Positions 1 to 43,012 of a stretch of DNA of 43,012 nt are shown piece after piece. The stretch lies in the IMG/VR virus record IMGVR_UViG_3300025671_000136, positions 1-43,012 of that record; one strand, given 5' to 3'. The notes beneath the pieces were generated by a model, which did no database searches, was not told the origin of the DNA, and saw only the letters and a program-made list of their open reading frames with translations. The DNA comes from a virus. Both the position numbers and the translations under genes were made by a program. Positions within the stretch are counted from its first letter, which is position 1; the number at the start of each line of letters is the position of its first letter.

Positions 1-1524
1 CGCAATCGTGCAAGTGGGGAGCAACGTAGAAGCAGGATCTACGAATCTACAGCAGTTCGTGCCGTAGTACGTGCAGCTAGTGGACTGCACAATACATTAA
101 CCAGCAATACAGTCCCGTGGTTTGGTTTGGAAACAGAAGATCCACAAATCATGAGAGATCGAGAAACCAAACTTTGGTTAGAGGAAGCCACACGCATTAC
201 TTCCAATGTCTTTAATTCTCCACGATCTAATTTTCATAGTGCTATACACGAATACTACATTGACTTGGTTACTTTTGGGACAGGAGTCCTGTTCGTGTAT
301 TACGATGAAGATGAAGGCGCACAATTCAGATCGTACTTTTTAGGAGATTGCTGTTTAGCAGAAGACAAGCACGGCAAGATCAATTCGGTATATCGCACTT
401 ATTTTGATACGGCACGATCCATTGTTTCCACCTTTGATAGCGTATCCGATGGAATCAAGAAAGCTGCAGAGAAAGAACCATTTCGGGTATTTGAAATCAT
501 GCATGTGGTCAAGCCACGTGACAGTAAGGGACGTACCAAGAATTCTAAGCCGTATGCATCGTATTATATAGAAAAAGAAAGCAATCATTTATTGAAGAAA
601 GGCGGCTTTGATGAATTCCCATTTGTTTGCAGCAGATGGCATAAGAATTCACAAGAAGTATACGGCAGAGGTTGTGGCACAGAAAGTTTGCCAGATGTGC
701 GAATGATTAACGAAATGGAAAGAGTGGGATTAATTGCACTACAAAAGATGGTTGATCCACCGTTGCTTGTGCCAGACGATGGATTTTTGTCTCCTGTGCG
801 TACTACGCCCGGAGGTTTAAATTATTTTAGATCTGGATTAGGGCCACAAGATCGTATCACGCCATTGCAGACAAATGGCAGAATTGATTTGTCTGAACAA
901 AAAATAGGAATGGTACGTCAATCCATTGAACGTGCTTTTTATTTAGATCTTTTGGAACTGCCAGCAAATATAGCACCGGATGGAGACATCCTGCGTTTTA
1001 GTGCAACAGAGATTGCGGCAAGACAGAGAGATCGCTTGCAAATCTTAGGGCCAATTGTGGCTAGACAGGAATCCGAACTGTTGGGGCCATTGGTCATTCG
1101 CACATTGTCAATGCTAATTCGTAACGGACAATTGCCTCCTGCACCATCTGAGCTAATTAATTCAGATGTCAAAGTAGTGTACAGCAATCCGGTTGCAGTA
1201 TCTCAACGTAGTGGTGAGCTAGCTTCTATTAATCAGCTAGTCCAGTTTATGGTTCCGTTTGCTCAAATTGATCCACAAATTCTGCAGGGATTTGAATTTA
1301 ATCGAATCGGAGAACTAGCTGCAGAAATACTTAAAGTTTCCCCATCTGTCTTTAAAACACCTATGGAAAGAGAACAAGAAGCGCAACAGCAGGAAGCTGA
1401 ACAACAACGTGCTATGGAAATGCAACAGGCAATGGCAATTGCTCAACAGCAGAATTTAATTGCCGAAAGCAGACGTAATGATTCACAGGCATTTTTGAAT
1501 GAGGCCAAAGCATCGAAGGTATAG
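1..1524 (+). CDS. Portal (head-tail connector) protein, 5' end cut by window, allele A
   Basis: The reading frame is open from base 1 to the stop at 1524 (507 residues). It aligns end to end with residues 42-548 of the complete portal at 38214, so 41 N-terminal residues lie outside the window. The TTG at 127 is an internal leucine, not a start. The family is the podovirus head-tail connecting protein, which forms the dodecameric portal through which DNA is packaged and ejected. The C-terminus is Gln/Glu-rich (about residues 460-490 of the full protein). About a dozen residues differ from the 38214 copy (for example DRETKL/DRDTKL, RAFYLDL/RSFFLDL), while nucleotide changes are much more frequent, so divergence is mainly synonymous. 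The next gene follows after 2 bases. Confidence 0.93.
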   Translation, partial: RNRASGEQRRSRIYESTAVRAVVRAASGLHNTLTSNTVPWFGLETEDPQIMRDRETKLWLEEATRITSNVFNSPRSNFHSAIHEYYIDLVTFGTGVLFVYYDEDEGAQFRSYFLGDCCLAEDKHGKINSVYRTYFDTARSIVSTFDSVSDGIKKAAEKEPFRVFEIMHVVKPRDSKGRTKNSKPYASYYIEKESNHLLKKGGFDEFPFVCSRWHKNSQEVYGRGCGTESLPDVRMINEMERVGLIALQKMVDPPLLVPDDGFLSPVRTTPGGLNYFRSGLGPQDRITPLQTNGRIDLSEQKIGMVRQSIERAFYLDLLELPANIAPDGDILRFSATEIAARQRDRLQILGPIVARQESELLGPLVIRTLSMLIRNGQLPPAPSELINSDVKVVYSNPVAVSQRSGELASINQLVQFMVPFAQIDPQILQGFEFNRIGELAAEILKVSPSVFKTPMEREQEAQQQEAEQQRAMEMQQAMAIAQQQNLIAESRRNDSQAFLNEAKASKV

Positions 1525-1526
1525 AA

Positions 1527-1949
1527 ATGATTGAATATGAGACGGAGGCAGACCGGAAAATAGAAGAACAAGTCCGGTTATTTTTGCAGGGTAAAAAGTT
1601 TTTTGTAATGTCCAATAAATCGAAGTATCCGCTAGATTGGATTGTAACTGATCCAATTACGGGTGCAAAAGCATTTGCTGAATTTAAATGTAGAAAAGAT
1701 GATTTTGATTTTATGAATCGACTTGGTGGCCCGTGTATTTCGGTAGAGAAATATGTAACTGCTACTCAATACGCAAAAGCCACCAATCTTCCTTTAATGT
1801 TTTTTTGGTTACTGTCTGATGCATTGTTGGTCTACATCACCAATACGTTTCCACCACACGAATTATTACCAATGCAGGATCGCAGAGAACGTGATCGCAT
1901 ATCACCGTGTGTGCGGATTCCAATAGATGATTGTAGAGTCTATCGATGA
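1527..1949 (+). CDS. Putative small PD-(D/E)XK nuclease-like protein, allele A
   Basis: A 140-residue protein between portal and Bbp19-like genes. Visible features are a predicted core helix with EEQVRLFLQ, then YPLDWIV followed about 14 residues later by AFAEFKCRKDD. This D...ExK arrangement resembles the PD-(D/E)XK active site of small nucleases and VRR-NUC-like proteins. I do not recognise the exact family, so the nuclease assignment is an inference from motif spacing. The allele at 39863 keeps D, E and K (AFAEFKRRNDD) although 22 of 140 residues differ, making this one of the fastest-diverging proteins of the duplicated segment. The stop overlaps the next start by 4 bases (ATGA). Confidence 0.6.
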   Translation: MIEYETEADRKIEEQVRLFLQGKKFFVMSNKSKYPLDWIVTDPITGAKAFAEFKCRKDDFDFMNRLGGPCISVEKYVTATQYAKATNLPLMFFWLLSDALLVYITNTFPPHELLPMQDRRERDRISPCVRIPIDDCRVYR

Positions 1950-2197
1950 AAGAAAATCAGCGGCAACAATTTTACAAAGAACTATTTGAGTCCGATATTG
2001 GACAAATCGTGTTGAAGGATTTAGTGGACAGACATCGTGTACTCTATTCTTCTTTTCAGCCAGATCCACTCGCTGGAGCATTTTTAGAGGGCAGGAAAGC
2101 CGTAGTGCTGGACATTCTTAGGTTTTTGAATGTCGATTTACAATACCTACAAGATTCGATGAAGGAACGATATGACAGAAGCAGCATTAGCGATTGA
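1946..2197 (+). CDS. Bbp19-like small virion-region protein, allele A
   Basis: 83 residues. The pattern FYKELFESDIGQIVLKDL, then DPLAGAFLEGRKAVVLDIL, matches my recollection of the Bbp19-like family of Bordetella phage BPP-1 and relatives (phe-x-gly start, then an EGRRxVVLxIL helix). The family sits in the head-morphogenesis cluster and its precise role is not established. The start overlaps the upstream stop, and the last 26 bases overlap the scaffold start at 2172, which suggests translational coupling. The copy at 40282 is nearly the same protein. Confidence 0.75.
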   Translation: MKENQRQQFYKELFESDIGQIVLKDLVDRHRVLYSSFQPDPLAGAFLEGRKAVVLDILRFLNVDLQYLQDSMKERYDRSSISD

Positions 2198-2966
2198 GCC
2201 AGAAGTACAAGAATCTGCAGCACCAGTAGCAGAATCCAATACTTCCTTTAATCCATCAATGCTTTCGGATGATTTACGACATGAGCCATCTCTTAGAAAC
2301 TTTGATGATGTCAATAAGTTAGCAAAGTCGTATGTACACTTAGTCAAGAAGTTGGGAGCAACTCCAGATTCGTTAATTCGCTTACCATCCGGTCAAGAAA
2401 ATTGGGATGAGGTTTATGACAGGTTAGGTAGACCAGCCAATCCGGATGAGTATGAGATTCCCTATGACACCAATATGGAAAAGGAATTTGCCTCCGAAAT
2501 ACATAAATTGGGGTTATCGAAAACTCAGGGACAACAAGTATACAATTTCATTAAGAACAATGGAGAACTATCCAGCCAAATGGCAAAACAGCAATTTGAA
2601 GAATTGCAGCAAGAAAATGTAAATAGATTAAAATCAGATTGGGGTTCAGATTTTCAGCGAAATGCAACCAAAGCCAGACAAGCTTTTTTGCAGTTAGCTG
2701 ATGCAGAAACATTGCAGATGTTTGAACAAACTGGATTAGGAAATCATCCAGAAGTAGTTAAGATTTTCCATAAGGTTGGTGAAATCTTAGAAGAAGATGG
2801 ACTACTAAATACTGATATAGGTGGCACAGGAGCAGGAGGTAGAGCGCAAGTAGAAAGCAGATTGTCAGAAATCATGAAACCAGATAGTGGGTTCTGGGAT
2901 GGAATGCATCCAGATCATGATCGCTTAGTAGCAGAAGCGTTAAAGTTACGAGAGATGTTAGTATGA
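2172..2966 (+). CDS. Scaffolding protein, allele A
   Basis: 264 residues, acidic and helix-rich, with an acidic disordered N-terminus (EPEVQESAAPVAES) and a charged C-terminus ending in LKLREMLV. Position directly between portal and major capsid, composition, and length all fit a podovirus scaffolding protein, which guides procapsid assembly and leaves before maturation. The middle part (KEFASEIHKLGLSKTQGQQV and following) resembles the conserved part of marine podovirus scaffolds. The 40508 allele differs mainly in the N-terminal tail and the last 30 residues, the parts expected to vary. It overlaps the next small gene by 4 bases. Confidence 0.85.
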   Translation: MTEAALAIEPEVQESAAPVAESNTSFNPSMLSDDLRHEPSLRNFDDVNKLAKSYVHLVKKLGATPDSLIRLPSGQENWDEVYDRLGRPANPDEYEIPYDTNMEKEFASEIHKLGLSKTQGQQVYNFIKNNGELSSQMAKQQFEELQQENVNRLKSDWGSDFQRNATKARQAFLQLADAETLQMFEQTGLGNHPEVVKIFHKVGEILEEDGLLNTDIGGTGAGGRAQVESRLSEIMKPDSGFWDGMHPDHDRLVAEALKLREMLV

Positions 2967-3136
2967 CTTATGAAGATCATGTAAAACTAAGAACAGAATG
3001 TTTGCGTTTGGCAAAACAAAACGCTAGTATTGCAGATATGACAAACTCACTAACGTTAGCACAAGAGTACTACGAGTGGGTTTGTGATGTAGACAAAAGA
3101 CGTTTAAAACGTCAATCAGAATCTCATGCAGTTTGA
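2963..3136 (+). CDS. 57-aa conserved protein between scaffold and capsid, allele A
   Basis: A short gene starting at the ATGA overlap with the scaffold stop. It encodes MTYEDHVKLRTECLRLAKQN and continues through LAQEYYEWVCDVDKRRLKR to SESHAV. It is helical, with one cysteine in each half. The copy at 41299 has the same length and differs at only three residues (A to L, M to I, S to A), so it is a real gene under selection. The function is unknown; small proteins here are common in this phage group. Its 3' end runs into the folded leader of the capsid gene: the last 10 bases before the stop form the 5' arm of the first stem. Confidence 0.8.
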   Translation: MTYEDHVKLRTECLRLAKQNASIADMTNSLTLAQEYYEWVCDVDKRRLKRQSESHAV

Positions 3137-3252
3137 CAGGATTGGATAATCTTTTCTGACCCATTTAACTGCAAACCTCTTGGAACCCTACCGTTAGGAC
3201 AACTCCAGACTTTAGCATGAGAATTAACCTTCTTAGCTATTTATGGAGTTGT
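3127..3252 (+). promoter_or_regulatory. Structured leader of the capsid gene, RBS-sequestering hairpin (allele A)
   Basis: Three nested or consecutive stems are visible. Stem 1 pairs TGCAGTT (3127-3133) with AACTGCA (3167-3173) and encloses GATT/AATC. Stem 2 is CCTA/TAGG around 3188-3198. Stem 3 pairs ACAACTCCA (3199-3207) with TGGAGTTGT (3244-3252), a perfect 9-bp stem ending one base before the ATG and containing the GGAG ribosome binding site, with TAGC/GCTA and AGAA/TTCT stacked inside. In the other allele the only changes after base 3053 are two substitutions in an unpaired bulge and one inserted T in the stem 2 loop. A role in controlling capsid translation is an inference. Confidence 0.65.
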
Positions 3253-3253
3253 A

Positions 3254-4105
3254 ATGTCTTTTCAAGTTACAACCGCATTTGTTGATCAGTATAGTGCAGT
3301 TCTGCAGCACCTTTCACAACAGAAAGGTTCAAGATTGCGTGGACTGTGTCGTACTGAAGTCATGCGGGGCAAACAAGCTTTTTTTGATCAAATCGGTCAA
3401 CAAGTAGCATCTGTACGAACCACACGTGGTGCAGATACAATCCTCAATGATACTCCTCACTCAAGACGTTCTGTAACATTGCAGGACTATGAAGTAGCAG
3501 ATCTGATTGATGATCAAGATCGACTACGAATGATTACTGATCCAACTTCTTCTTATGCTCAAGCACAAGCATTTGCATTGGGCAGAGCAATGGATGACGT
3601 AATCATTAGTGCTGCCACAGGAGTAGCGTATACGGGTGCTAGTGGTACAACACAAACCTCATTGACCAACACAATTGCGGCTGGTGGTACTGGACTAACC
3701 ATTGATAAATTGCGTGAAGCCAAGTTCACACTAGACAATGCCGATGTTGATCCTTCCCTACCACGAATCATTGTAGTTTCTCCAAAGCAAATTCAAGATT
3801 TGTTGGAGACTGTCGAGATTCGTAGTGCTGATTTCAACACGGTTCGTGCGTTGGTAGCTGGTCAGGTAGACACCTTCTTAGGCTTCCAATTTGTAACCAG
3901 TACACGATTGGCAAAGTCTGGATCTGACCGTACTTGTTTCTGTTATGCCATCGATGGGATCTTGCTAGCAATGGCAAAAGATCTAACTGTTCGTGTAGAT
4001 GAAAGACCTGACAAATCATACGCCCATCAAGTGTATGCTTGCATGAGTCTGGGTGCTACAAGAATGGAAGAAGAAAAGGTTGTTTCAATCATCTGTCAAG
4101 AATAA
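3254..4105 (+). CDS. Major capsid protein, allele A
   Basis: 283 residues, beginning MSFQVTTAFVDQYSAVLQHL. The first third (EVMRGKQAFFDQIG, TPHSRRSVTLQDYEVADLID, LGRAMDDVIISAATG) and the end (VRVDERPDKSYAHQVYACMS) are typical of the short HK97-fold capsid proteins of BPP-1-like podoviruses. It is preceded by a folded leader and followed 9 bases later by a cement-like protein. Compared with the 41591 allele, 22 of 23 amino-acid differences fall in residues 138-230, while the rest is practically identical. The start is the ATG directly after the GGAGTTGTA leader end. Confidence 0.93.
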   Translation: MSFQVTTAFVDQYSAVLQHLSQQKGSRLRGLCRTEVMRGKQAFFDQIGQQVASVRTTRGADTILNDTPHSRRSVTLQDYEVADLIDDQDRLRMITDPTSSYAQAQAFALGRAMDDVIISAATGVAYTGASGTTQTSLTNTIAAGGTGLTIDKLREAKFTLDNADVDPSLPRIIVVSPKQIQDLLETVEIRSADFNTVRALVAGQVDTFLGFQFVTSTRLAKSGSDRTCFCYAIDGILLAMAKDLTVRVDERPDKSYAHQVYACMSLGATRMEEEKVVSIICQE

Positions 4106-4114
4106 TGAGGTACA

Positions 4115-4540
4115 ATGGCTAGTGTTAATACTCAAAAGATGACAGATATTACTTCTGTCCCTAAAGTAATGGTCAAAGCCTCAGAAGCGCACGGCAGAAA
4201 ACGTGTTTGGTATGACACGTATGAAGCTGCAGCATTAGCTTCTGGTTCTGACATTACCTTTGCTCGACTACCTAAAGGCGCAACTATCTATAACGTTAAG
4301 CTGATGTGTGATGCATTGGGTGCTGGCGTTACTCTAGATGTAGGTGATTCTGCTGACGCAGATCGCTTTATTGCCAAAGGTTCAACCACTTGGAATACTG
4401 CAAATCAAGTAGTGGATTCTAACGCCATTGCTGGTGTTGGGTACACACTGACTGCAGAAACCGATTTGGTGATCACTACGGGTGGTGCTTCTGCAACAGG
4501 CACTATTAAAGTAATGGTTGAATATAGCTTAGGTGACTAA
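4115..4540 (+). CDS. Putative capsid cement/decoration protein, allele A
   Basis: 141 residues, rich in Thr, Val, Gly and Ala, predicted mostly beta strand (for example GATIYNVKLMCDALGAGVTLDVGDS and a final TGTIKVMVEYSLGD). Lying directly after the capsid gene, at this size and composition, it fits the jelly-roll cement protein of BPP-1-like phages; this is inferred by position and fold type. The start has GAGG five bases upstream. The stop TAA overlaps the next ATG (TAATG). The allele at 42452 differs at only a few positions. Confidence 0.65.
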   Translation: MASVNTQKMTDITSVPKVMVKASEAHGRKRVWYDTYEAAALASGSDITFARLPKGATIYNVKLMCDALGAGVTLDVGDSADADRFIAKGSTTWNTANQVVDSNAIAGVGYTLTAETDLVITTGGASATGTIKVMVEYSLGD

Positions 4541-5139
4541 TGTCTAGCGTTGTTCAGATTTGCAATATTGCTCTGTCCAATATTGGGGAACAAAGAATTA
4601 CTGCTCTGACGGACAACAACGAAAGAGCAAGACTGTGTAACCTGCGTTATGATGACGTAAGGGATGCAGTCTTGCGTTCTTATCCTTTTAAGTGTGCGGT
4701 TCAACGTGTTGAGTTGGCACTCAGTGCAGATGCACCAGCTTGGGGATACACTAAGAAATATGCACTACCTGCAGATTGCTTACGTGTCTTGGACATAGAA
4801 AATTACTTTGAAGATTATGAGATTGAAGGAAGGTTTATTGTTACGGATGCTACACAGATTAAGCTGAAATATATCTATCGTGTAGAAGATCCAAACCAGT
4901 TTGATTCTTTGACCATTCAAGCGATTGCGCTCAAGTTGGCTTCTGAATTGGCAGAAGCACTAACCGGACGGGCAGACTTGCGTGACCGTATGTTGGCTAA
5001 GTATCTACAAGTGATTAGTGAAGCGAGAGGTGTAGATTCTCAGGAACGTTCCATGCCGCAGATTATTGTGGCAGAAGATTATTTAAATTCACGATTGGTA
5101 GGATCTACGTTCCGTAGAGCAAAATTTTCGGATGAATAA
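4540..5139 (+). CDS. Tail tubular protein A / adaptor (T7 gp11-like)
   Basis: 199 residues, close to T7 gp11 (196). The N-terminal pattern VVQICNIALSNIGEQRITAL followed by ARLCNLRYDDVRDAVLRSYPF is characteristic of the gp11-like adaptor family, which forms a ring joining portal to tail nozzle. Its first 127 bases (from 4549) are an exact duplicate of the end of the window. It begins inside the stop of the cement gene and is followed by the nozzle gene after 2 bases. Confidence 0.9.
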   Translation: MSSVVQICNIALSNIGEQRITALTDNNERARLCNLRYDDVRDAVLRSYPFKCAVQRVELALSADAPAWGYTKKYALPADCLRVLDIENYFEDYEIEGRFIVTDATQIKLKYIYRVEDPNQFDSLTIQAIALKLASELAEALTGRADLRDRMLAKYLQVISEARGVDSQERSMPQIIVAEDYLNSRLVGSTFRRAKFSDE

Positions 5140-7604: not shown

Positions 7605-7742
7605 ATGTTATTAGTACCAGAAGATTTTAAAACAGATCCAATAGAAGATTTGTTAGATGAGCTAGATGATAACAATACGTTTGATGATCTAAGAGAAGAA
7701 TTAAATCAGCAATACAACGAAATGAGAGAAAATGGCAGTTAG
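7605..7742 (+). CDS. 45-aa acidic protein of unknown function
   Basis: A very short frame, MLLVPEDFKTDPIEDLLDEL then DDNNTFDDLREELNQQYNEM and RENGS, strongly acidic and predicted helical. It fills the gap between the nozzle gene and the next virion gene and overlaps that gene by 11 bases, consistent with coupling. No strong ribosome binding site is visible, and no second allele is available here for comparison, so confidence is moderate. Confidence 0.5.
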   Translation: MLLVPEDFKTDPIEDLLDELDDNNTFDDLREELNQQYNEMRENGS

Positions 7743-22655: not shown

Positions 22656-22795
22656 TGGATTTATTTACAGAGATCACAGATATTCTTTTAAATACCGGAG
22701 CATTGGAAGCAATTCTACTGGCAACTGGTGCGCCAGCTAGTGCAGTGGTAGGCATTAAAATCTATAAGAAATTTAAGAATGCAAGAAACAGTTAA
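22655..22795 (+). CDS. 46-aa small membrane protein, second holin candidate
   Basis: The frame MDLFTEITDILLNTGALEAI then LLATGAPASAVVGIKIYKKF and KNARNS has one hydrophobic helix and a basic tail. It lies exactly between the secreted protein and the endolysin, overlapping both (TAATG at the start, 17 bases at the end). Size and topology suit a minimal pinholin-like or accessory holin. Only context and hydrophobicity support this. Confidence 0.55.
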   Translation: MDLFTEITDILLNTGALEAILLATGAPASAVVGIKIYKKFKNARNS

Positions 22796-23162
22796 TTTTA
22801 AAGAGCATGAATTTCGTTGTTCCTGTTGTGGAAACAATGAAATGAAAGATGTATTCATTGAGAAACTACAATTGATTCGTGATGAATTTGGGAAATCAAT
22901 GAGAATCACATCCGGTTATCGTTGCAAAGGATATAATGACATTGTCAGTTCTACTGGCCCCAATGGGCCACATACTACGGGTAGAGCAGCAGACATACTA
23001 GTGAGTGGTTCAGACATGCATGAATTGATTCGGCTAGCGTTTAAACACAACATGACCGGAATAGGAATCAAAGGTACTGGCCCACATGCCACTCGCTACA
23101 TCCACATCGATGATTTATTATCAGATGATAAGCGATTACGTCCTACGGTTTGGAGTTACTAA
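22779..23162 (+). CDS. Endolysin, peptidase M15 family (D-Ala-D-Ala carboxypeptidase-like)
   Basis: 127 residues. SGYRC (45-49), HTTGRAADI with zinc ligands H65 and D72, and YIHID with H109 form the M15A zinc site seen in peptidoglycan-cleaving phage enzymes. The N-terminal EFRCSCCGNNEM is the usual opening of this family. No signal peptide is present, so it needs a holin, in line with the two small membrane proteins upstream. It runs convergently into the integrase gene with a 20-base overlap (23143-23162) and no visible terminator between them. Confidence 0.9.
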   Translation: MQETVNFKEHEFRCSCCGNNEMKDVFIEKLQLIRDEFGKSMRITSGYRCKGYNDIVSSTGPNGPHTTGRAADILVSGSDMHELIRLAFKHNMTGIGIKGTGPHATRYIHIDDLLSDDKRLRPTVWSY

Positions 23163-24102
23163 TTTGTACAAGTTCTAGTAGCTGATCCATTTTTGATTGT
23201 AAGGACTGAAAATCCGTGTGTCGCAGGTTCGATTCCCGCTCTGGCCACCTTTCGTTACAATTACCAATTTCATCTACTAAATCTTGCAGTGGCAGATAAC
23301 TGCTATTGAGATAGAGTTGCGTGGTGGTCAGTCTCTCATGTCGTAGCAAATGCTGCACATGAACCGGATTGTGATTGCTGGACAGCAGTTCCGTAGCAAT
23401 CGATGCACGATAACCGTGTAATGGTTTTGGCCCATTGACTCCAATTTCTTTTTGAAATTTCCGCATTGAATAGGTTAGGTGACTAATCTCTTTGAAATGA
23501 GAATTGAGATAGTTTACTTCTCCTTCATGATCCTCACTGTCTAAGAATTCACGTAGTGGTTTGGCAATTGGAAGTACAGCATCCTGTCTGTTTTTTGTAT
23601 GCCATTCTTGTGAGTTCTCTAATCGAATGCCATCCCCTATTTGATCCCATCTAAGCTGGAATAACTCTCCTGCTCTCATAGCTGTATAGCGCAGCATATA
23701 ATGCGCTCTACGCAAACATCGAAAGCGTTTAGATCTGGCATTCCGTTGATTCAATTCATGCTGCATATGATTGAGTTGATCAATTGTCCAAACCGTAGGC
23801 AGTTTTTTAACTTCACGTAACATTGGCACATGATACTTAGGCCAATCTAAATACTTATGGCAATAGTGCAGGTAAGCTTTCAGTGTGCGGATGTGTGAAT
23901 TGATTGAAGAATCGGATAATGATTCTGATCGGAGATGGTCAATGAATTGATCAAAGTGATCACGTGTCAGTGATTTCGGTTGATCCGGAAAAAGATGTGT
24001 CCAACGTCTAAGATGATTACGATAAGTCGAATATGTTCGATCAGATCTATATATAATAATAGATTTCAAGAATTGGGCCACAGTGTCTTGATTAGATTGC
24101 AT
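23143..24102 (-). CDS. int: Tyrosine-family integrase with attP-encoded C-terminal tail
   Basis: 319 residues. The N-terminal SAM-like core-binding domain (DTVAQFLKSIIIYRSDRTYS to about residue 95) is followed by the catalytic domain with R143 (TAMRAGELFQLRW), K170 (WHTKN), H229/R232 (LHGYR), H255 (LLRHE) and nucleophile Y264 (TTTQLYLN). Residues about 285-302 (RWPERESNLRHTDFQS) are the antisense translation of the tRNA-Phe 3' half, and residues 303-319 are encoded beyond it. All catalytic residues precede the att core. The gene overlaps the repressor gene upstream by 11 bases, so int is probably co-transcribed from the repressor promoter. Confidence 0.93.
   Translation of the reverse strand: MQSNQDTVAQFLKSIIIYRSDRTYSTYRNHLRRWTHLFPDQPKSLTRDHFDQFIDHLRSESLSDSSINSHIRTLKAYLHYCHKYLDWPKYHVPMLREVKKLPTVWTIDQLNHMQHELNQRNARSKRFRCLRRAHYMLRYTAMRAGELFQLRWDQIGDGIRLENSQEWHTKNRQDAVLPIAKPLREFLDSEDHEGEVNYLNSHFKEISHLTYSMRKFQKEIGVNGPKPLHGYRASIATELLSSNHNPVHVQHLLRHERLTTTQLYLNSSYLPLQDLVDEIGNCNERWPERESNLRHTDFQSLQSKMDQLLELVQISNSKP
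23201..23249 (+). other. attP site: 3' half of a tRNA-Phe(GAA) gene
   Basis: The sequence contains a tRNA-Phe anticodon arm GGACTGAAAATCC with anticodon GAA, a five-base variable loop, a T arm with loop TTCGATT, and an acceptor end TCTGGCC followed by ACC. The 5' half of the tRNA is absent, so this is not a functional gene but the usual identity block of a phage attachment site. One A-C mismatch is present in the T stem (positions 51/63). The A-G mismatch at 28/42 lies outside the likely core (from about 23203) and would be corrected by the host 5' half. It lies within the integrase coding region. Confidence 0.88.
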
Positions 24103-24421
24103 CAGCTATCATCCTCCCCTTAATGGTTAGTGAGATAATTCCTTCAATGTCAATAGTGATGTGGGTTTTCACTCCTTCCCCTGCTCCTACCTTAAATTTC
24201 ATTTCCTGCAATTCATCTGCATTGCCTTTTAATACCCACTCATAATCAAAATCGATCACTGATTGAGCGAGTTCCAATAGCTCATGTACGGAGTCTGGTT
24301 GCCTACCATTCAGTATTCTTTGAACTTTTGATCGATCCCATCCAATTGAATCGGCTAAATTGTGTTGCGTAACCTTCTGATTTTTCAGCACATATTTAAA
24401 TCGATCAAGTAATTTCACCAT
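24092..24421 (-). CDS. CI-like repressor with XRE helix-turn-helix, 109 aa
   Basis: The N-terminal HTH (VTQHNLADSIGWDRSKVQRI, LNGRQPDSVHELLELAQ) is of the Cro/CI XRE type. The C-terminal 40 residues (KVGAGEGVKTHITIDIEGII, SLTIKGRMI) form a small beta domain, probably for dimerisation; there is no LexA-like autoprotease motif. Divergent placement opposite the early operon with a palindromic operator between them, and coupling to int, point to the lysogeny repressor. Confidence 0.78.
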   Translation of the reverse strand: MVKLLDRFKYVLKNQKVTQHNLADSIGWDRSKVQRILNGRQPDSVHELLELAQSVIDFDYEWVLKGNADELQEMKFKVGAGEGVKTHITIDIEGIISLTIKGRMIADAI

Positions 24422-30011: not shown

Positions 30012-30224
30012 TTATTTATTATTTAGATATTGATTGAACGCATTCACATCATCACCAAATTCTAAATAGAATTGACCATAAAGTAGCTTCAATGATCTTT
30101 TCATTGATGGTATCTGCAATGGATCAATCAATAATGTTTGTTTGTTGGGTAACGTCACCAACAAATTATTTTTGACTGTTTCAATCTTGATCAGTCTTTT
30201 TTGGAGTGCTTGATCAAATAGCAT
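30012..30224 (-). CDS. Small protein of unknown function, 70 aa, coupled to GP88
   Basis: The start is placed at the ATG at 30224, which overlaps the stop of the GP88-family gene; an ATG at 30254 is also in frame but deeper inside that gene. The sequence LFDQALQKRLIKIETVKNNL, LVTLPNKQTLLIDPLQIPSM and a helical end FGDDVNAFNQYL is not recognised. The tight overlap suggests it works with the GP88 protein. It ends just before a strong terminator. Confidence 0.6.
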   Translation of the reverse strand: MLFDQALQKRLIKIETVKNNLLVTLPNKQTLLIDPLQIPSMKRSLKLLYGQFYLEFGDDVNAFNQYLNNK

Positions 30225-30969
30225 AGGACAACATCTCGAAAGATAATTGGGCATTTATTTGATCAAATGAATCTAAGACAAAAGGTGAATCCGCATTGAT
30301 TAGCTTCCCTTTTGCTTTCAAGACTCCGATAGTGCCAATATTATCAATGATCCAACTGTCTGAATAATCTGCATCCGTTACTTGAAAGCCTTCAATCTTC
30401 AATGGGATCTGTTTTGGTCTACGAACAACAAAAGAAACATTCACTCCGTTTTGAAGTGCATACATAGAAAAATCTTCTGATTTCTCATTGTGTGAATATG
30501 CTAAGAAATAATTTTTTGGAAATAATCCCCTGATATATCTAAGGATCCGATCTTTTCGTTTTGTGTAATCGATAAAAAGCACATCGTGAAAAGATTTGAA
30601 AAGCTCAGGTTTGATCAACTCGAAAGCAAGATCTGAAAATGTATTCAGTCTTATTACAAGTTGTTTACGGTTCTGATGGGCATATTCAGCAAGTTGACAA
30701 ATATCATTTTCTAGTAGCTCAAAGAAAGTCGCTCTATCATTCATAAACAATAGAGTTTTTCTTATTCTTGCTTTCTGTACTGTTGGAATTCCACCTTTTC
30801 CGGTAAATGAAACGCAAAACTTTTCACAATCTCCACTTGCACTGCAAACATTAAAGCCACTAGTACTGGCTGGTGCTAACATTAACGAATAATAAATACG
30901 GTCTTTTGTGTCATTGATAATTGACTTCATGACCTTATGATTATTATTGCTTATTAGATGTAATTTCAT
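30214..30969 (-). CDS. GP88-family protein, 251 aa
   Basis: SLMLAPASTSGFNVCSASGD followed by CEKFCVSFTGKGG, then RIRKTLLFMNDRATFFELLE and VIRLNTFSDLAFE, matches the 'gene product 88' family first named in mycobacteriophages and also seen in other phages and small plasmids; its biochemical role is not established. Three cysteines (C42, C48 and C52 region) and the R-x-N/D motifs are the conserved parts. Ribosome binding site AAGGT upstream. It is transcribed opposite to the late and early operons, with its own terminator. Confidence 0.75.
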   Translation of the reverse strand: MKLHLISNNNHKVMKSIINDTKDRIYYSLMLAPASTSGFNVCSASGDCEKFCVSFTGKGGIPTVQKARIRKTLLFMNDRATFFELLENDICQLAEYAHQNRKQLVIRLNTFSDLAFELIKPELFKSFHDVLFIDYTKRKDRILRYIRGLFPKNYFLAYSHNEKSEDFSMYALQNGVNVSFVVRRPKQIPLKIEGFQVTDADYSDSWIIDNIGTIGVLKAKGKLINADSPFVLDSFDQINAQLSFEMLSYAI

Positions 30970-38217: not shown

Positions 38218-39860
38218 ATATTGCACATGAACTAACTGCTGAATACGAAGCACTCAAAGGAGATCGTGGCAATTGGGAAACGATGTGGCAGGACATTGCC
38301 GAATTAATGATTCCACGTAGAGCAGATTTCACAAATCGGAATCGTGCAAGTGGAGAGCAAAGAAGAAGTCGAATCTATGAGTCTACTGCTGTTCGTGCCG
38401 TAGTACGTGCTGCTAGTGGATTGCACAACACATTGACCAGCAATACGGTTCCGTGGTTTGGATTGGAAACAGAAGATCCACAAATCATGAGAGATCGGGA
38501 CACAAAACTATGGCTGGAAGAAGCAACACGCATTACTTCCAATGTGTTCAATTCTCCACGATCTAATTTTCATAGTGCCATACACGAATACTACATTGAT
38601 TTGGTTACGTTTGGGACAGGAGTCCTGTTCGTGTACTACGATGAAAATGAAGGCGCACAATTCAGATCGTACTTCTTAGGAGATTGCTGTTTAGCAGAAG
38701 ACAAACACGGTAAGATTGATGCGGTGTATCGAACATATTTTGATACGGCAAGATCGATTGTTTCCACGTTTGACAGTGTATCCGATGGCATTCGCAAAGC
38801 GGCAGAGAAGGAACCGTTTCGTGTGTTTGAGATCATGCATGTGGTGAAACCACGCAACAGTAAAGGACGCACCAAGAATTCCAAACCCTATGCATCGTAT
38901 TATATAGAGAAAGAAAGCAATCACCTATTGAAGAAAGGTGGTTTTGATGAGTTCCCATTTGTATGCAGTCGATGGCATAAGAACTCACAGGAAGTATACG
39001 GCAGAGGTTGTGGCACAGAAAGTTTGCCAGATGTTCGAATGATTAACGAAATGGAAAGAGTAGGACTGATTGCACTACAAAAAATGGTCGATCCACCATT
39101 GCTTGTGCCAGACGATGGGTTCCTTTCTCCCGTTCGTACTACGCCCGGAGGGTTAAATTACTTCAGAGCAGGATTAGGGCCGCAAGATCGTATCACGCCA
39201 TTGCAGACAAATGGCAGAATTGATTTATCAGAACAGAAAATAGGAATGGTTCGTCAATCGATTGAACGTTCTTTCTTTTTAGACTTATTGGAATTGCCAG
39301 CAAACATAGCACCGGATGGGGATATTTTGCGATTCAGTGCAACGGAAATTGCGGCAAGACAGAGAGATAGGTTGCAAATCTTGGGGCCAATTGTAGCTAG
39401 ACAGGAAAGCGAACTGTTGGGGCCATTGGTCATCCGAACACTTTCGATGTTGATTCGTAACGGGCAATTGCCACCAGCACCATCTGAGCTAATCAATTCA
39501 GATGTAAAAGTAGTGTACAGCAATCCGGTTGCGGTTTCACAACGTAGCGGAGAACTGGCTTCCATCAATCAGCTAGTTCAGTTTATGGTTCCGTTTGCTC
39601 AGATTGATCCACAAATTCTGCAGGGATTTGCATTTAATCGAATCGGAGAACTTGCTGCAGAAATTCTTAAAGTTTCCCCATCTGTCTTTAAAACACCTAT
39701 GGAAAGAGAACAGGAAGCACAACAGCAAGAAGCTGAACAGCAACGTGCTATGGAGATGCAACAGGCAATGGCAATTGCTCAACAGCAGAATCTCATTGCA
39801 GAAAGCAGACGCAATGATTCACAAGCATTTTTGAATGAGGCCAAAGCATCACAGGTATAA
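38214..39860 (+). CDS. Portal (head-tail connector) protein, complete, allele B
   Basis: 548 residues. It opens MNIAHELTAEYEALKGDRGN WETM and then IAELMIPRRADFTNRN, the usual beginning of the Head-tail_con family, and ends in Gln-rich repeats (REQEAQQQEAEQQRAMEMQQ). It starts at an ATGA overlap with the previous gene. The protein matches the partial copy at 1-1524 with only about a dozen differences over 507 residues, while the DNA differs at many third codon positions. Confidence 0.95.
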   Translation: MNIAHELTAEYEALKGDRGNWETMWQDIAELMIPRRADFTNRNRASGEQRRSRIYESTAVRAVVRAASGLHNTLTSNTVPWFGLETEDPQIMRDRDTKLWLEEATRITSNVFNSPRSNFHSAIHEYYIDLVTFGTGVLFVYYDENEGAQFRSYFLGDCCLAEDKHGKIDAVYRTYFDTARSIVSTFDSVSDGIRKAAEKEPFRVFEIMHVVKPRNSKGRTKNSKPYASYYIEKESNHLLKKGGFDEFPFVCSRWHKNSQEVYGRGCGTESLPDVRMINEMERVGLIALQKMVDPPLLVPDDGFLSPVRTTPGGLNYFRAGLGPQDRITPLQTNGRIDLSEQKIGMVRQSIERSFFLDLLELPANIAPDGDILRFSATEIAARQRDRLQILGPIVARQESELLGPLVIRTLSMLIRNGQLPPAPSELINSDVKVVYSNPVAVSQRSGELASINQLVQFMVPFAQIDPQILQGFAFNRIGELAAEILKVSPSVFKTPMEREQEAQQQEAEQQRAMEMQQAMAIAQQQNLIAESRRNDSQAFLNEAKASQV

Positions 39861-39862
39861 TA

Positions 39863-40285
39863 ATGATTGAGTATGAAACGGAAGCGGATCGGAAAGCGGA
39901 AGAGCAAGTCCGCTTGTTTTTGCAGAGTAAGAAATTTTTTGTAATGTCGAATAAGTCGAAGTATCCGTTGGATTGGATTGTTAGAGATCCATTGACTAAT
40001 GCAACTGCTTTTGCAGAGTTCAAACGCAGAAATGATGATTTTGAATTTATGATGAAATTGGGTGGCCCGTGTGTATCTGTAGAGAAATATGTAACTGCTA
40101 CTAACTATGCCAAAGCCACCAACCTTCCTTTGATGTTCTTTTGGTTATTGACCGATGCTTTGCTGGTGTACATCACCAATAGGTTTCCTCCACAAGAAAT
40201 ACTGTTGATGCCAGATCGTAGGGAACGTGGACGAATCTCACCGTGTGTACGCATATCATTGGATGATTGCAGAGTGTATCGATGA
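39863..40285 (+). CDS. Putative PD-(D/E)XK nuclease-like protein, allele B
   Basis: 140 residues, same length as the 1527 copy; 22 differences, but YPLDWIV and AFAEFK are kept, which supports an active-site role for D, E and K. Start and overlap arrangement are identical to allele A. The C-terminal part (RFPPQEILLMPDRRERGRIS) is the most changed stretch. Confidence 0.6.
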   Translation: MIEYETEADRKAEEQVRLFLQSKKFFVMSNKSKYPLDWIVRDPLTNATAFAEFKRRNDDFEFMMKLGGPCVSVEKYVTATNYAKATNLPLMFFWLLTDALLVYITNRFPPQEILLMPDRRERGRISPCVRISLDDCRVYR

Positions 40286-40533
40286 AAGAAAATCAACGAC
40301 AACTGCTCTACAAAGAATTGTTTGAATCTGATTCTGGAAAGGTAGTGCTGAAAGATTTGGTAGAAAGACACCGTGTACTGTATTCGTCTTTTCAGCCAGA
40401 TCCATTAGCTTCTGCATTTTTGGAAGGCAGAAAAGCTGTAGTGTTGGACATTCTTAGATTTCTGAATGTCGATTTACAATATTTACAAGATTCGATGAAG
40501 GAACGAAATGACAGAAGCAGCATTAGCTATTGA
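40282..40533 (+). CDS. Bbp19-like small virion-region protein, allele B
   Basis: 83 residues beginning MKENQRQLLYKELFESDSGK. The start was set at 40282 by comparison with allele A; an upstream in-frame ATG at 40267 lies inside the previous gene and is absent from allele A. The family motif DPLASAFLEGRKAVVLDIL is conserved. It overlaps the scaffold gene by 26 bases. Confidence 0.75.
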   Translation: MKENQRQLLYKELFESDSGKVVLKDLVERHRVLYSSFQPDPLASAFLEGRKAVVLDILRFLNVDLQYLQDSMKERNDRSSISY

Positions 40534-41302
40534 ACCGGAAGTACAAGAATCTGCACCGGAAGTGGCAGAATCCAATACTACCTTTAGCCCATCAATGCTT
40601 TCATCAGATTTGCAACATGAGCCATCTCTGAGAAACTTTGATGATGTCAATAAGTTAGCAAAATCCTATGTGCATCTAGTAAAAAAGCTAGGAGCCACTC
40701 CCGATTCGTTGATTCGTCTGCCATCTGGTGGAGAAGATTGGAATGAAGTTTATGACAAGTTAGGCAGACCAGCCAATCCGGATGAGTATGAGATTCCTTA
40801 TGACACCAATATGGAAAAAGAATTTGCGTCCGAAATACATAAATTGGGCTTATCGAAAACTCAGGGACAACAAGTATACAACTTCATCAAAAATCATGGA
40901 GAACTTACTACTCAAATGGCAAAACAGCAATTTGAGGAATTGCAACAAGAAAACGTTAATAAGTTAAAATCAGATTGGGGATCAGATTTCCAACGGAATG
41001 CCACCAAAGCAAGACAAGCTTTTCTGCAATTGGCTGATGCAGAAACACTGCAGATGTTTGAGCAAACCGGATTAGGCAATCATCCGGAAGTAGTAAAGAT
41101 ATTTCATAAAGTAGGAGAGATCTTAGAAGAGGATGGCTTACTCAATACAGATATAGGCGGAACAGGTGCAGGAGGTCGAGCGCAAGTAGAAAGTAGGCTA
41201 GCAGAGATTATGAAACCGGATAGTGGATTCTGGGATGGAATGCATCCGGAACATAGTAAGTTAGTAGAAGAAGCACTGAAGTTGCGAGAGATGTTAGTAT
41301 GA
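40508..41302 (+). CDS. Scaffolding protein, allele B
   Basis: 264 residues, same length as the copy at 2172. Differences cluster in the acidic N-terminus (ESAPEVAESNTTFSPSMLSS versus ESAAPVAESNTSFNPSMLSD) and near the C-terminus (HPEHSKLVEEALK versus HPDHDRLVAEALK), with a nearly identical centre. The C-terminal helix is normally the part that touches the capsid protein. Confidence 0.85.
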   Translation: MTEAALAIEPEVQESAPEVAESNTTFSPSMLSSDLQHEPSLRNFDDVNKLAKSYVHLVKKLGATPDSLIRLPSGGEDWNEVYDKLGRPANPDEYEIPYDTNMEKEFASEIHKLGLSKTQGQQVYNFIKNHGELTTQMAKQQFEELQQENVNKLKSDWGSDFQRNATKARQAFLQLADAETLQMFEQTGLGNHPEVVKIFHKVGEILEEDGLLNTDIGGTGAGGRAQVESRLAEIMKPDSGFWDGMHPEHSKLVEEALKLREMLV

Positions 41303-41472
41303 CCTATGAAGATCATGTTAAATTACGAACAGAATGTTTGCGTTTAGCAAAACAAAACGCTAGTATTCTTGATATTACAAATGCACTTACGTTAGCACAA
41401 GAGTACTACGAGTGGGTTTGTGATGTAGACAAAAGACGTTTAAAACGTCAATCAGAATCTCATGCAGTTTGA
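41299..41472 (+). CDS. 57-aa conserved protein between scaffold and capsid, allele B
   Basis: Same length and start arrangement as the gene at 2963 (ATGA overlap). The 3' half is identical to allele A at DNA level over a 143-base block that continues through the stop codon into the leader, far above the identity of the neighbouring genes. This suggests that the DNA or RNA itself is constrained here, not just the protein. Confidence 0.8.
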   Translation: MTYEDHVKLRTECLRLAKQNASILDITNALTLAQEYYEWVCDVDKRRLKRQSESHAV

Positions 41473-41589
41473 CAGGATTGGATAATCTTTTCTGACCCAT
41501 TTAACTGCAAACCTCTTGGAACCCTACCGTTTAGGACAACTCCATACGTTAGCATGAGAATTAACCTTCTTAGCTATTTATGGAGTTGT
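41463..41589 (+). promoter_or_regulatory. Structured leader of the capsid gene (allele B)
   Basis: The same stems as in allele A: TGCAGTT (41463-41469)/AACTGCA (41503-41509), CCTA/TAGG with one extra T in its loop, and ACAACTCCA (41536-41544)/TGGAGTTGT (41581-41589) covering the GGAG of the capsid gene. All three differences from allele A fall in unpaired positions. Confidence 0.65.
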
Positions 41590-41590
41590 A

Positions 41591-42442
41591 ATGTCTTTTC
41601 AAGTTACAACCGCATTTGTAGATCAGTATAGTGCCGTTCTCCAACACCTTTCACAACAGAAAGGTTCAAGATTGCGTGGACTGTGTCGTACTGAAGTCAT
41701 GCGGGGCAAACAAGCTTTCTTTGATCAAATCGGTCAACAAGTTGCTGCAGTACGAACAACACGTGGTGCAGATACCATTCTAAATGATACACCACACTCA
41801 AGACGTTCTGTAACGTTGCAGGACTATGAAGTAGCAGATCTGATTGATGATCAAGATCGACTACGAATGATTACTGATCCAACTTCTTCTTATGCTCAAG
41901 CACAAGCATTTGCATTGGGTAGAGCAATGGATGACGTAATCATTAGTGCGGCTACCGGAGTTGCTTATACGGGTGCTAGTGGAACTACACAAACCTCACT
42001 AAGCAATACAATTGCTGCTGGTGGTACGGGTATGACGCTAGCCAAACTAAGAGAAGCAAAATACATTCTGGATAATGCAGATGTAGATCCTTCTCTACCA
42101 CGAATTATTGTCATTTCGCCTAAACAATTGCAGGACATGCTGGCTATTACAGAAGTCCAATCGGCAGATTACAACACCATTCGTGCGTTAGTTTCCGGTG
42201 ACGTAAACACGTACATGGGCTTTCAATTTGTGACTAGTACACGATTGGCAAAGTCTGGTAGTGATCGCACTTGTTTTGTTTATGCTATTGATGGAATCTT
42301 GCTAGCAATGGCAAAAGACCTAACGGTTCGTGTAGATGAAAGACCAGACAAATCATACGCCCATCAAGTGTATGCTTGCATGAGTCTTGGTGCTACAAGA
42401 ATGGAAGAGGAAAAAGTTGTTTCAATCATCTGTCAAGAATAA
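41591..42442 (+). CDS. Major capsid protein, allele B
   Basis: 283 residues, same length as the copy at 3254. Residues 1-137 differ at one position (QVAA versus QVAS) and 231-283 at none, but residues 138-230 carry 22 replacements, such as LAKLREAKYILDNADVD and MLAITEVQSADYNTIRALVS versus IDKLREAKFTLDNADVD and LLETVEIRSADFNTVRALVA. Most are conservative exchanges of hydrophobic residues, with a few charge changes. Confidence 0.93.
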   Translation: MSFQVTTAFVDQYSAVLQHLSQQKGSRLRGLCRTEVMRGKQAFFDQIGQQVAAVRTTRGADTILNDTPHSRRSVTLQDYEVADLIDDQDRLRMITDPTSSYAQAQAFALGRAMDDVIISAATGVAYTGASGTTQTSLSNTIAAGGTGMTLAKLREAKYILDNADVDPSLPRIIVISPKQLQDMLAITEVQSADYNTIRALVSGDVNTYMGFQFVTSTRLAKSGSDRTCFVYAIDGILLAMAKDLTVRVDERPDKSYAHQVYACMSLGATRMEEEKVVSIICQE

Positions 42443-42451
42443 TGAGGTACA

Positions 42452-42877
42452 ATGGCTAGTGTTAATACTCAAAAGATGACAGATATTACATCTGTCCCTA
42501 AAGTGATGGTCAAAGCCTCAGAAGCTCACGGCAGAAAACGTGTTTGGTATGACACGTATGAAGCTGCAGCATTAGCTTCTGGTTCTGACATTACCTTTGC
42601 TCGATTGCCAAAAGGCGCAACTGTCTACAACGTTAAGCTAATGTGTGATGCACTAGGTGCTGGCGTTACGCTTGATGTGGGTGATAGTGGTGATGCAGAT
42701 CGCTATATTGCGAAAGGTGCAACTACTTGGAATACTGCCAATCAAGTTGTGGATTCCAACGCTATTGATGGTGTGGGATATACACTGACTGCAGAAACTG
42801 ATTTGGTAATTACCACAGGTGGTGCTAGTGCAACTGGAACCATCAAAGTAATGGTCGAATATAGCTTAGGCGACTAA
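42452..42877 (+). CDS. Putative capsid cement/decoration protein, allele B
   Basis: 141 residues, identical to the copy at 4115 except for a handful of positions (GATVYNV, DSGDADRYIAKGATTW, AIDGVGY). Same spacing from the capsid gene and the same TAATG overlap with the adaptor gene. Confidence 0.65.
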   Translation: MASVNTQKMTDITSVPKVMVKASEAHGRKRVWYDTYEAAALASGSDITFARLPKGATVYNVKLMCDALGAGVTLDVGDSGDADRYIAKGATTWNTANQVVDSNAIDGVGYTLTAETDLVITTGGASATGTIKVMVEYSLGD

Positions 42878-43012
42878 TGGCTAGTGTTGTTCAGATTTGC
42901 AATATTGCTCTGTCCAATATTGGGGAACAAAGAATTACTGCTCTGACGGACAACAACGAAAGAGCAAGACTGTGTAACCTGCGTTATGATGACGTAAGGG
43001 ATGCAGTCTTGC
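42877..43012 (+). CDS. Tail adaptor (T7 gp11-like), 3' end cut by window
   Basis: Only the first 45 codons are present (MASVVQICNIALSNIGEQRI and on); the full gene is at 4540-5139, where the second residue is Ser instead of Ala. From 42886 on the DNA is identical to the copy beginning at 4549, up to the last base of the window. Confidence 0.9.
   Translation, partial: MASVVQICNIALSNIGEQRITALTDNNERARLCNLRYDDVRDAVL
42886..43012 (+). repeat. Exact 127-bp terminal repeat of 4549-4675
   Basis: Base-by-base comparison shows no difference over 127 positions; the base before it differs (T at 42885, C at 4548). A perfect repeat of exactly this length at a sequence end, after 4.5 kb of diverged duplicate, is what a de Bruijn assembly with k = 127 leaves when a path re-enters a used node. 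Confidence 0.9.

Follow-up and report, generated by a model that had tools for sequence, protein, structure and literature searches.

The integrase gene (int) of this phage contains a putative attP core in frame, and our best explanation, to which we assign a probability of about 60%, is that the C-terminal tail of the enzyme is swapped on integration, that a docking helix of the free form would be lost in this way and that the phage and prophage enzymes would differ. The window, as we call the whole stretch of 43,012 nucleotides that was analyzed, has the following features around the core.

The int gene and its tRNA-derived core

22779..23162, plus strand: M15-family endolysin, convergent with int (Pfam PF08291, E = 2e-13)
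23143..24102, minus strand: int, tyrosine recombinase (integrase), free-phage form of 319 aa (ORF, Pfam PF00589, catalytic residues)
23146..23202, minus strand: phage-encoded int tail L301-P319, 19 residues, helical by prediction and expected to be exchanged upon integration (pattern shared with 20 other contigs)
23203..23249, plus strand: putative attP core, 47-bp tRNA-Phe(GAA) 3' half, anticodon arm through ACC (exact match to L003 7659-7705)
24092..24421, minus strand: HTH protein whose gene lies directly upstream of int and shares 11 bp with it; candidate directionality factor or regulator (weak HTH_31 Pfam match, just under the cut-off)

The int product is a member of the tyrosine recombinase/phage integrase class. 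It matches PF00589 (Phage_integrase) with an E value of 7e-12, has a SAM-like N-terminal domain in addition (Pfam), and carries the complete catalytic R-K-H-R-H-Y set, in which R143, K170, R232, H255 and Y264 are invariant and H229 nearly invariant across 20 aligned integrase sequences. Its predicted fold resembles those of XerA, integron IntI and lambda Int (Foldseek). The HTH protein is a candidate regulator by its position, which is like that of uoi in phage Mx8.

The core is read antisense by int as part of R285 and W286 to S300, after the catalytic Tyr264, as the sequence-only reading had proposed; the tRNA half it described starts at 23203 rather than 23201, and 19 rather than 17 residues follow it. 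All 47 nucleotides of the core are identical to positions 7659-7705 of the MAG contig CAJXNF010000111.1 (L003), within an intact tRNA-Phe(GAA) at 7631-7706 (ARAGORN), and even the T-stem A-C mismatch of this tRNA (GCAGG/CCCGC) is copied exactly in the phage. No complete tRNA was found anywhere in the window with ARAGORN or Rfam; the core is thus only half a tRNA, in keeping with attP. By the identity of the core to a tRNA 3' half, the phage carries a tRNA-targeting integration module, in which the core is the likely crossover site. In a scan of 84,980 species genomes, the tRNA-Phe of L003 was the sole exact match to the core, which makes it plausible that the host belongs to the lineage of this MAG. 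When phage records were scanned with the core, mostly ordinary tRNA genes were matched, and the antisense-tRNA peptide as the query likewise found mostly tRNA genes.

The endolysin ORF shares the last 20 bp of int, but the core, which the sequence-only reading had placed over the end of the endolysin region, starts 40 bp past the endolysin stop. On a larger scale, positions 1-4675 and 38337-43012 of the window (portal to capsid region) are 87.8% identical over 4676 bp. The contig thus wraps a ~38.3-kb genome, probably with two strains joined in it; alternatively, the repeat is a diverged duplication. Downstream of the replication genes, the minus strand encodes a GP88-family protein (PF17338, E = 1e-30) at 30214-30969.

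The tail in related integrases

Besides the window, 20 viral contigs, which stem from 19 metagenomes, have an int that reads the core in this frame and continues into a phage-type tail with the common pattern FQSL..K(I/M/L)D.LL.(L/I)V; with the window counted as well, the frame is open in 21/21 contigs. The tail occurs in nine distinct DNA haplotypes, all of which encode L..K(I/M/L)D.LL.(L/I)V. The 20 integrases are either 84% or ~62% identical to that of the window, the latter having been recovered by core scans and an alignment-based scan. The nearest relative (IMGVR_UViG_3300034375_008123; L020/L038), a near-complete contig of 38,254 bp, has an int that is 84% identical and likewise sits between an endolysin and an HTH gene. 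In the second int clade, nine additional in-frame codons (27 nt) lengthen the stretch from the catalytic domain to the core, and the core frame and the tail are nevertheless kept. These two clades are the only ones bearing the tail. An initial scan of viral contigs with the int protein gave only L002, a spurious short match. That the tail is a small gene of its own with Met305 as its start was considered and rejected, as most relatives have Ile or Leu at this position.

A different picture emerged from integrases with the tRNA half outside the gene. The alignment includes nine genome integrases of greater distance. Eight of these terminate shortly past the catalytic domain, and in several of the eight, most clearly L022, L023, L030 and L031, displaced tRNA 3' halves lie 3' of the int stop; the remaining one (L027) has a short tail of unrelated sequence. 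Four viral relatives with ~32% identity (L090, L091, L093 and L094) have their stop ahead of a sense-oriented tRNA-Arg-like 3' half. Thus, in all examples examined, the tail was absent wherever the core lay outside int and present wherever it lay within, and a relative carrying the tail without any tRNA similarity, which would have spoken against the sequence-only reading, was not found. Separately, a different phage (L033/L036; a 56.5-kb record) has an identical copy of the tRNA-Phe core that no integrase ORF covers (L036 2136-2179; L033 5041-5085), and its integrase frame of 363 aa lies several kilobases from the core and has no tail.

Predicted prophage form and competing explanations

In-silico joining with the L003 tRNA yielded an open prophage int of 310 aa ending in ...FQSVALPTELSGR, versus the phage form of 319 aa ending in ...FQSLQSKMDQLLELVQISNSKP. 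The int at the modelled junction, composed of the tRNA 5' half of L003, the core and the int side, ends in ...NERWPERESNLRHTDFQSVALPTELSGR. The tail of the modelled 310-aa form is VALPTELSGR and differs strongly from the free tail in the helix-forming region, and all catalytic residues are retained, the core lying beyond Y264. A changed tail on an intact catalytic part is what had been predicted, and a tail swap on integration is expected if the core is the crossover site. Integration would indeed sever int from the lysis genes as well, but this claim was overstated: the separation is ordinary, the core having the endolysin on one side and the catalytic part of int on the other, and nothing but the int tail is altered in these two convergent genes. 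The endolysin ORF is unaltered at the modelled attR.

The exact-core scan of the 84,980 species genomes gave no lysogen or prophage junction, its single match being an empty tRNA-Phe gene, and all 21 contigs had the free form of int and none the prophage form. A close int relative was not found in the MAG of L003 or its phylum; the best match was 39% identical and interrupted by stops. This locus, G025:C36 ~51006-51846 (L004/L055), has several stops followed by a tRNA-Arg-like 3' half and is apparently a decayed element. In a related genome (G021), a displaced tRNA-Phe 3' half lies 3' of another integrase C-terminus (L017 ~1501-1548, L019 1476-1550), and other elements may use the same tRNA-Phe target there.

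In AlphaFold2 models, the window int has a terminal helix at 296-316 and the second-clade int one at 299-316, both of low confidence (pLDDT ~45-69), and the core-encoded linker is of low confidence in both as well (pLDDT ~40); the two jobs share sequences and are not independent. By shuffling, the amphipathic character of the tail helix is clear in the second clade (P = 0.001 to 0.003) but not significant in the window (0.11). In the explanation that we prefer, the phage is of the temperate type, and its short integration module has the attP core in the 3' part of int. Int probably recombines the core with the host tRNA-Phe gene; this would rebuild the tRNA and fuse int to the tRNA 5' half in antisense, giving the 310-aa prophage enzyme with its catalytic domain intact. 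The free-form tail may well be a C-terminal helix that is borne by a flexible, core-encoded linker and docks on the neighboring subunit, and its loss may alter assembly or activity and thereby set the prophage enzyme apart from that of the phage, as is reported for Mx8. Upon excision, the free form would return.

By analogy, a regulatory switch in int is plausible. A reversible protein switch, in which a selected docking helix favors integration, integration removes it and the prophage enzyme stabilizes lysogeny until excision, is a tentative proposal that we would put somewhat below even odds. If true, the Mx8 principle would have a second lineage, made up of small phages that have a Head-tail_con portal and in which one short helix is the swapped module.

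Alternatively, the free-phage integrase may need the tail for integration, and its loss in the prophage may be a tolerated by-product without a regulatory role; stable lysogens may then seldom be formed, or the Int needed for excision may be produced in another way. The lack of a lysogen in any collection searched fits this explanation, as does the fact that selection on the tail requires the free form only, and T7-like cyanophages, which have int and a tRNA attP, integrate yet do not enter stable lysogeny (PMC8776855). Since the Mx8 prophage form can behave differently (PMC6070905) and the two tails predicted here are so unlike where the helix forms, we regard a mere by-product as unlikely.

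Could the tail have no function at all, int simply having had no stop ahead of the core? The core is open in three of three antisense frames, and antisense-tRNA peptides occur wherever tRNA genes do. An open int frame through the core is therefore neither evidence by itself nor remarkable; the evidence is the conserved tail, open in every contig and retained over ~38% protein divergence with substitutions of the protein type. Its pN/pS is 0.16 to 0.6 where defined and close to the rest-of-gene values in between-clade pairs. When the same base changes were placed at random, the observed stop-free similarity was reached in 1e-4 to 5e-3 of the trials for the between-clade and window-L020 pairs, with a P of about 1e-3 to 1e-4 for the main pairs, and with a P of 0.05 to 0.11 within the second clade, where the pairs are too similar for a good test; the pairs compared share branches and are not fully independent. 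Accidental read-through is thus very improbable. The endolysin overlap is no explanation for the conserved part either, because in the window clade it covers just the last six int codons and the stop.

Attachment site arms of tyrosine recombinases contain binding sites next to the core, and one attP arm does include the tail, but conservation as DNA (arm or accessory binding sites) is the least likely explanation, since up to 18/39 bases of the tail differ while the amino acid pattern is unchanged and the window-L034 changes fall on codon positions 1, 2 and 3 as 8, 2 and 8, avoiding position 2 (2/18; Fisher P = 0.007; window-L020: 6, 1 and 3; P = 0.07). Together, these data point to protein-level constraint on the tail. 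The arrangement of an in-gene core plus tail, as read from the sequences, is real and conserved and probably functional in the free form, and a tail swap that makes the phage and prophage enzymes differ is the explanation we prefer.

Comparison with known systems

C-terminal segments past the catalytic Tyr are found in Tn1549 Int, Cre, XerH and lambda Int as in the phage int. The C-terminal helix of Tn1549 Int swaps between subunits, with similar swaps in Cre, XerH and lambda Int; in these enzymes the helix docks on the partner and tunes activity (PMC5871717), whereas docking is proposed for the phage int. Shortening or removing the Tn1549 Int helix alters activity either way, depending on the extent (PMC5871717), and the direction of any effect here is therefore unpredictable. 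Unlike the phage int, none of the four has an att core between the helix and the catalytic domain.

Genes rewritten by integration are known from other viruses. In the integration-dependent immunity of mycobacteriophages such as BPs, integration alters an attP-containing phage gene (PMC4557955), as it would here. The gene altered there is reportedly the repressor and not int. Archaeal SSV-type suicidal integrases have the att site within the integrase gene (PMC8371274). There, integration splits the gene and parts off the catalytic part, whereas the phage int would change only in its tail past Y264; with the core after this residue and all catalytic residues staying, we rejected an SSV-type suicidal integrase.

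The closest parallel is Mx8, to which the sequence-only reading had pointed. Its prophage-form Int is reportedly less active. Mx8 has attP within int, and integration alters the int 3' end and changes its behavior (PMC6070905); the Islander authors allowed Mx8 and SSV integrases to extend across attP (PMC4383910). The Mx8 record indeed has an antisense tRNA 3' half inside int, with the catalytic part upstream and a phage-encoded tail beyond, and a small gene, uoi, overlaps the int start, as the HTH gene does in our phage. The two differ in the tRNA and in the length of the tail (~100 residues in Mx8 versus 19), their Int proteins have no similarity above chance (blastp), and Mx8 was tested experimentally, whereas the phage arrangement is known from sequence. 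With the core, as the presumed crossover site, in frame within the int coding sequence of all 21 contigs, the arrangement is of the Mx8 kind and no new principle: Mx8 had already provided a bacterial example of a self-rewriting integrase, and archaeal viruses have a version in which the gene is split. What is added is a swapped part consisting of one short tail, in at least 21 environmental contigs, whose free form is apparently kept by selection. Why a phage couples the tail of an enzyme to its integration state thus becomes directly testable with a small module, which comprises a single gene, a 47-bp site and the two tails.
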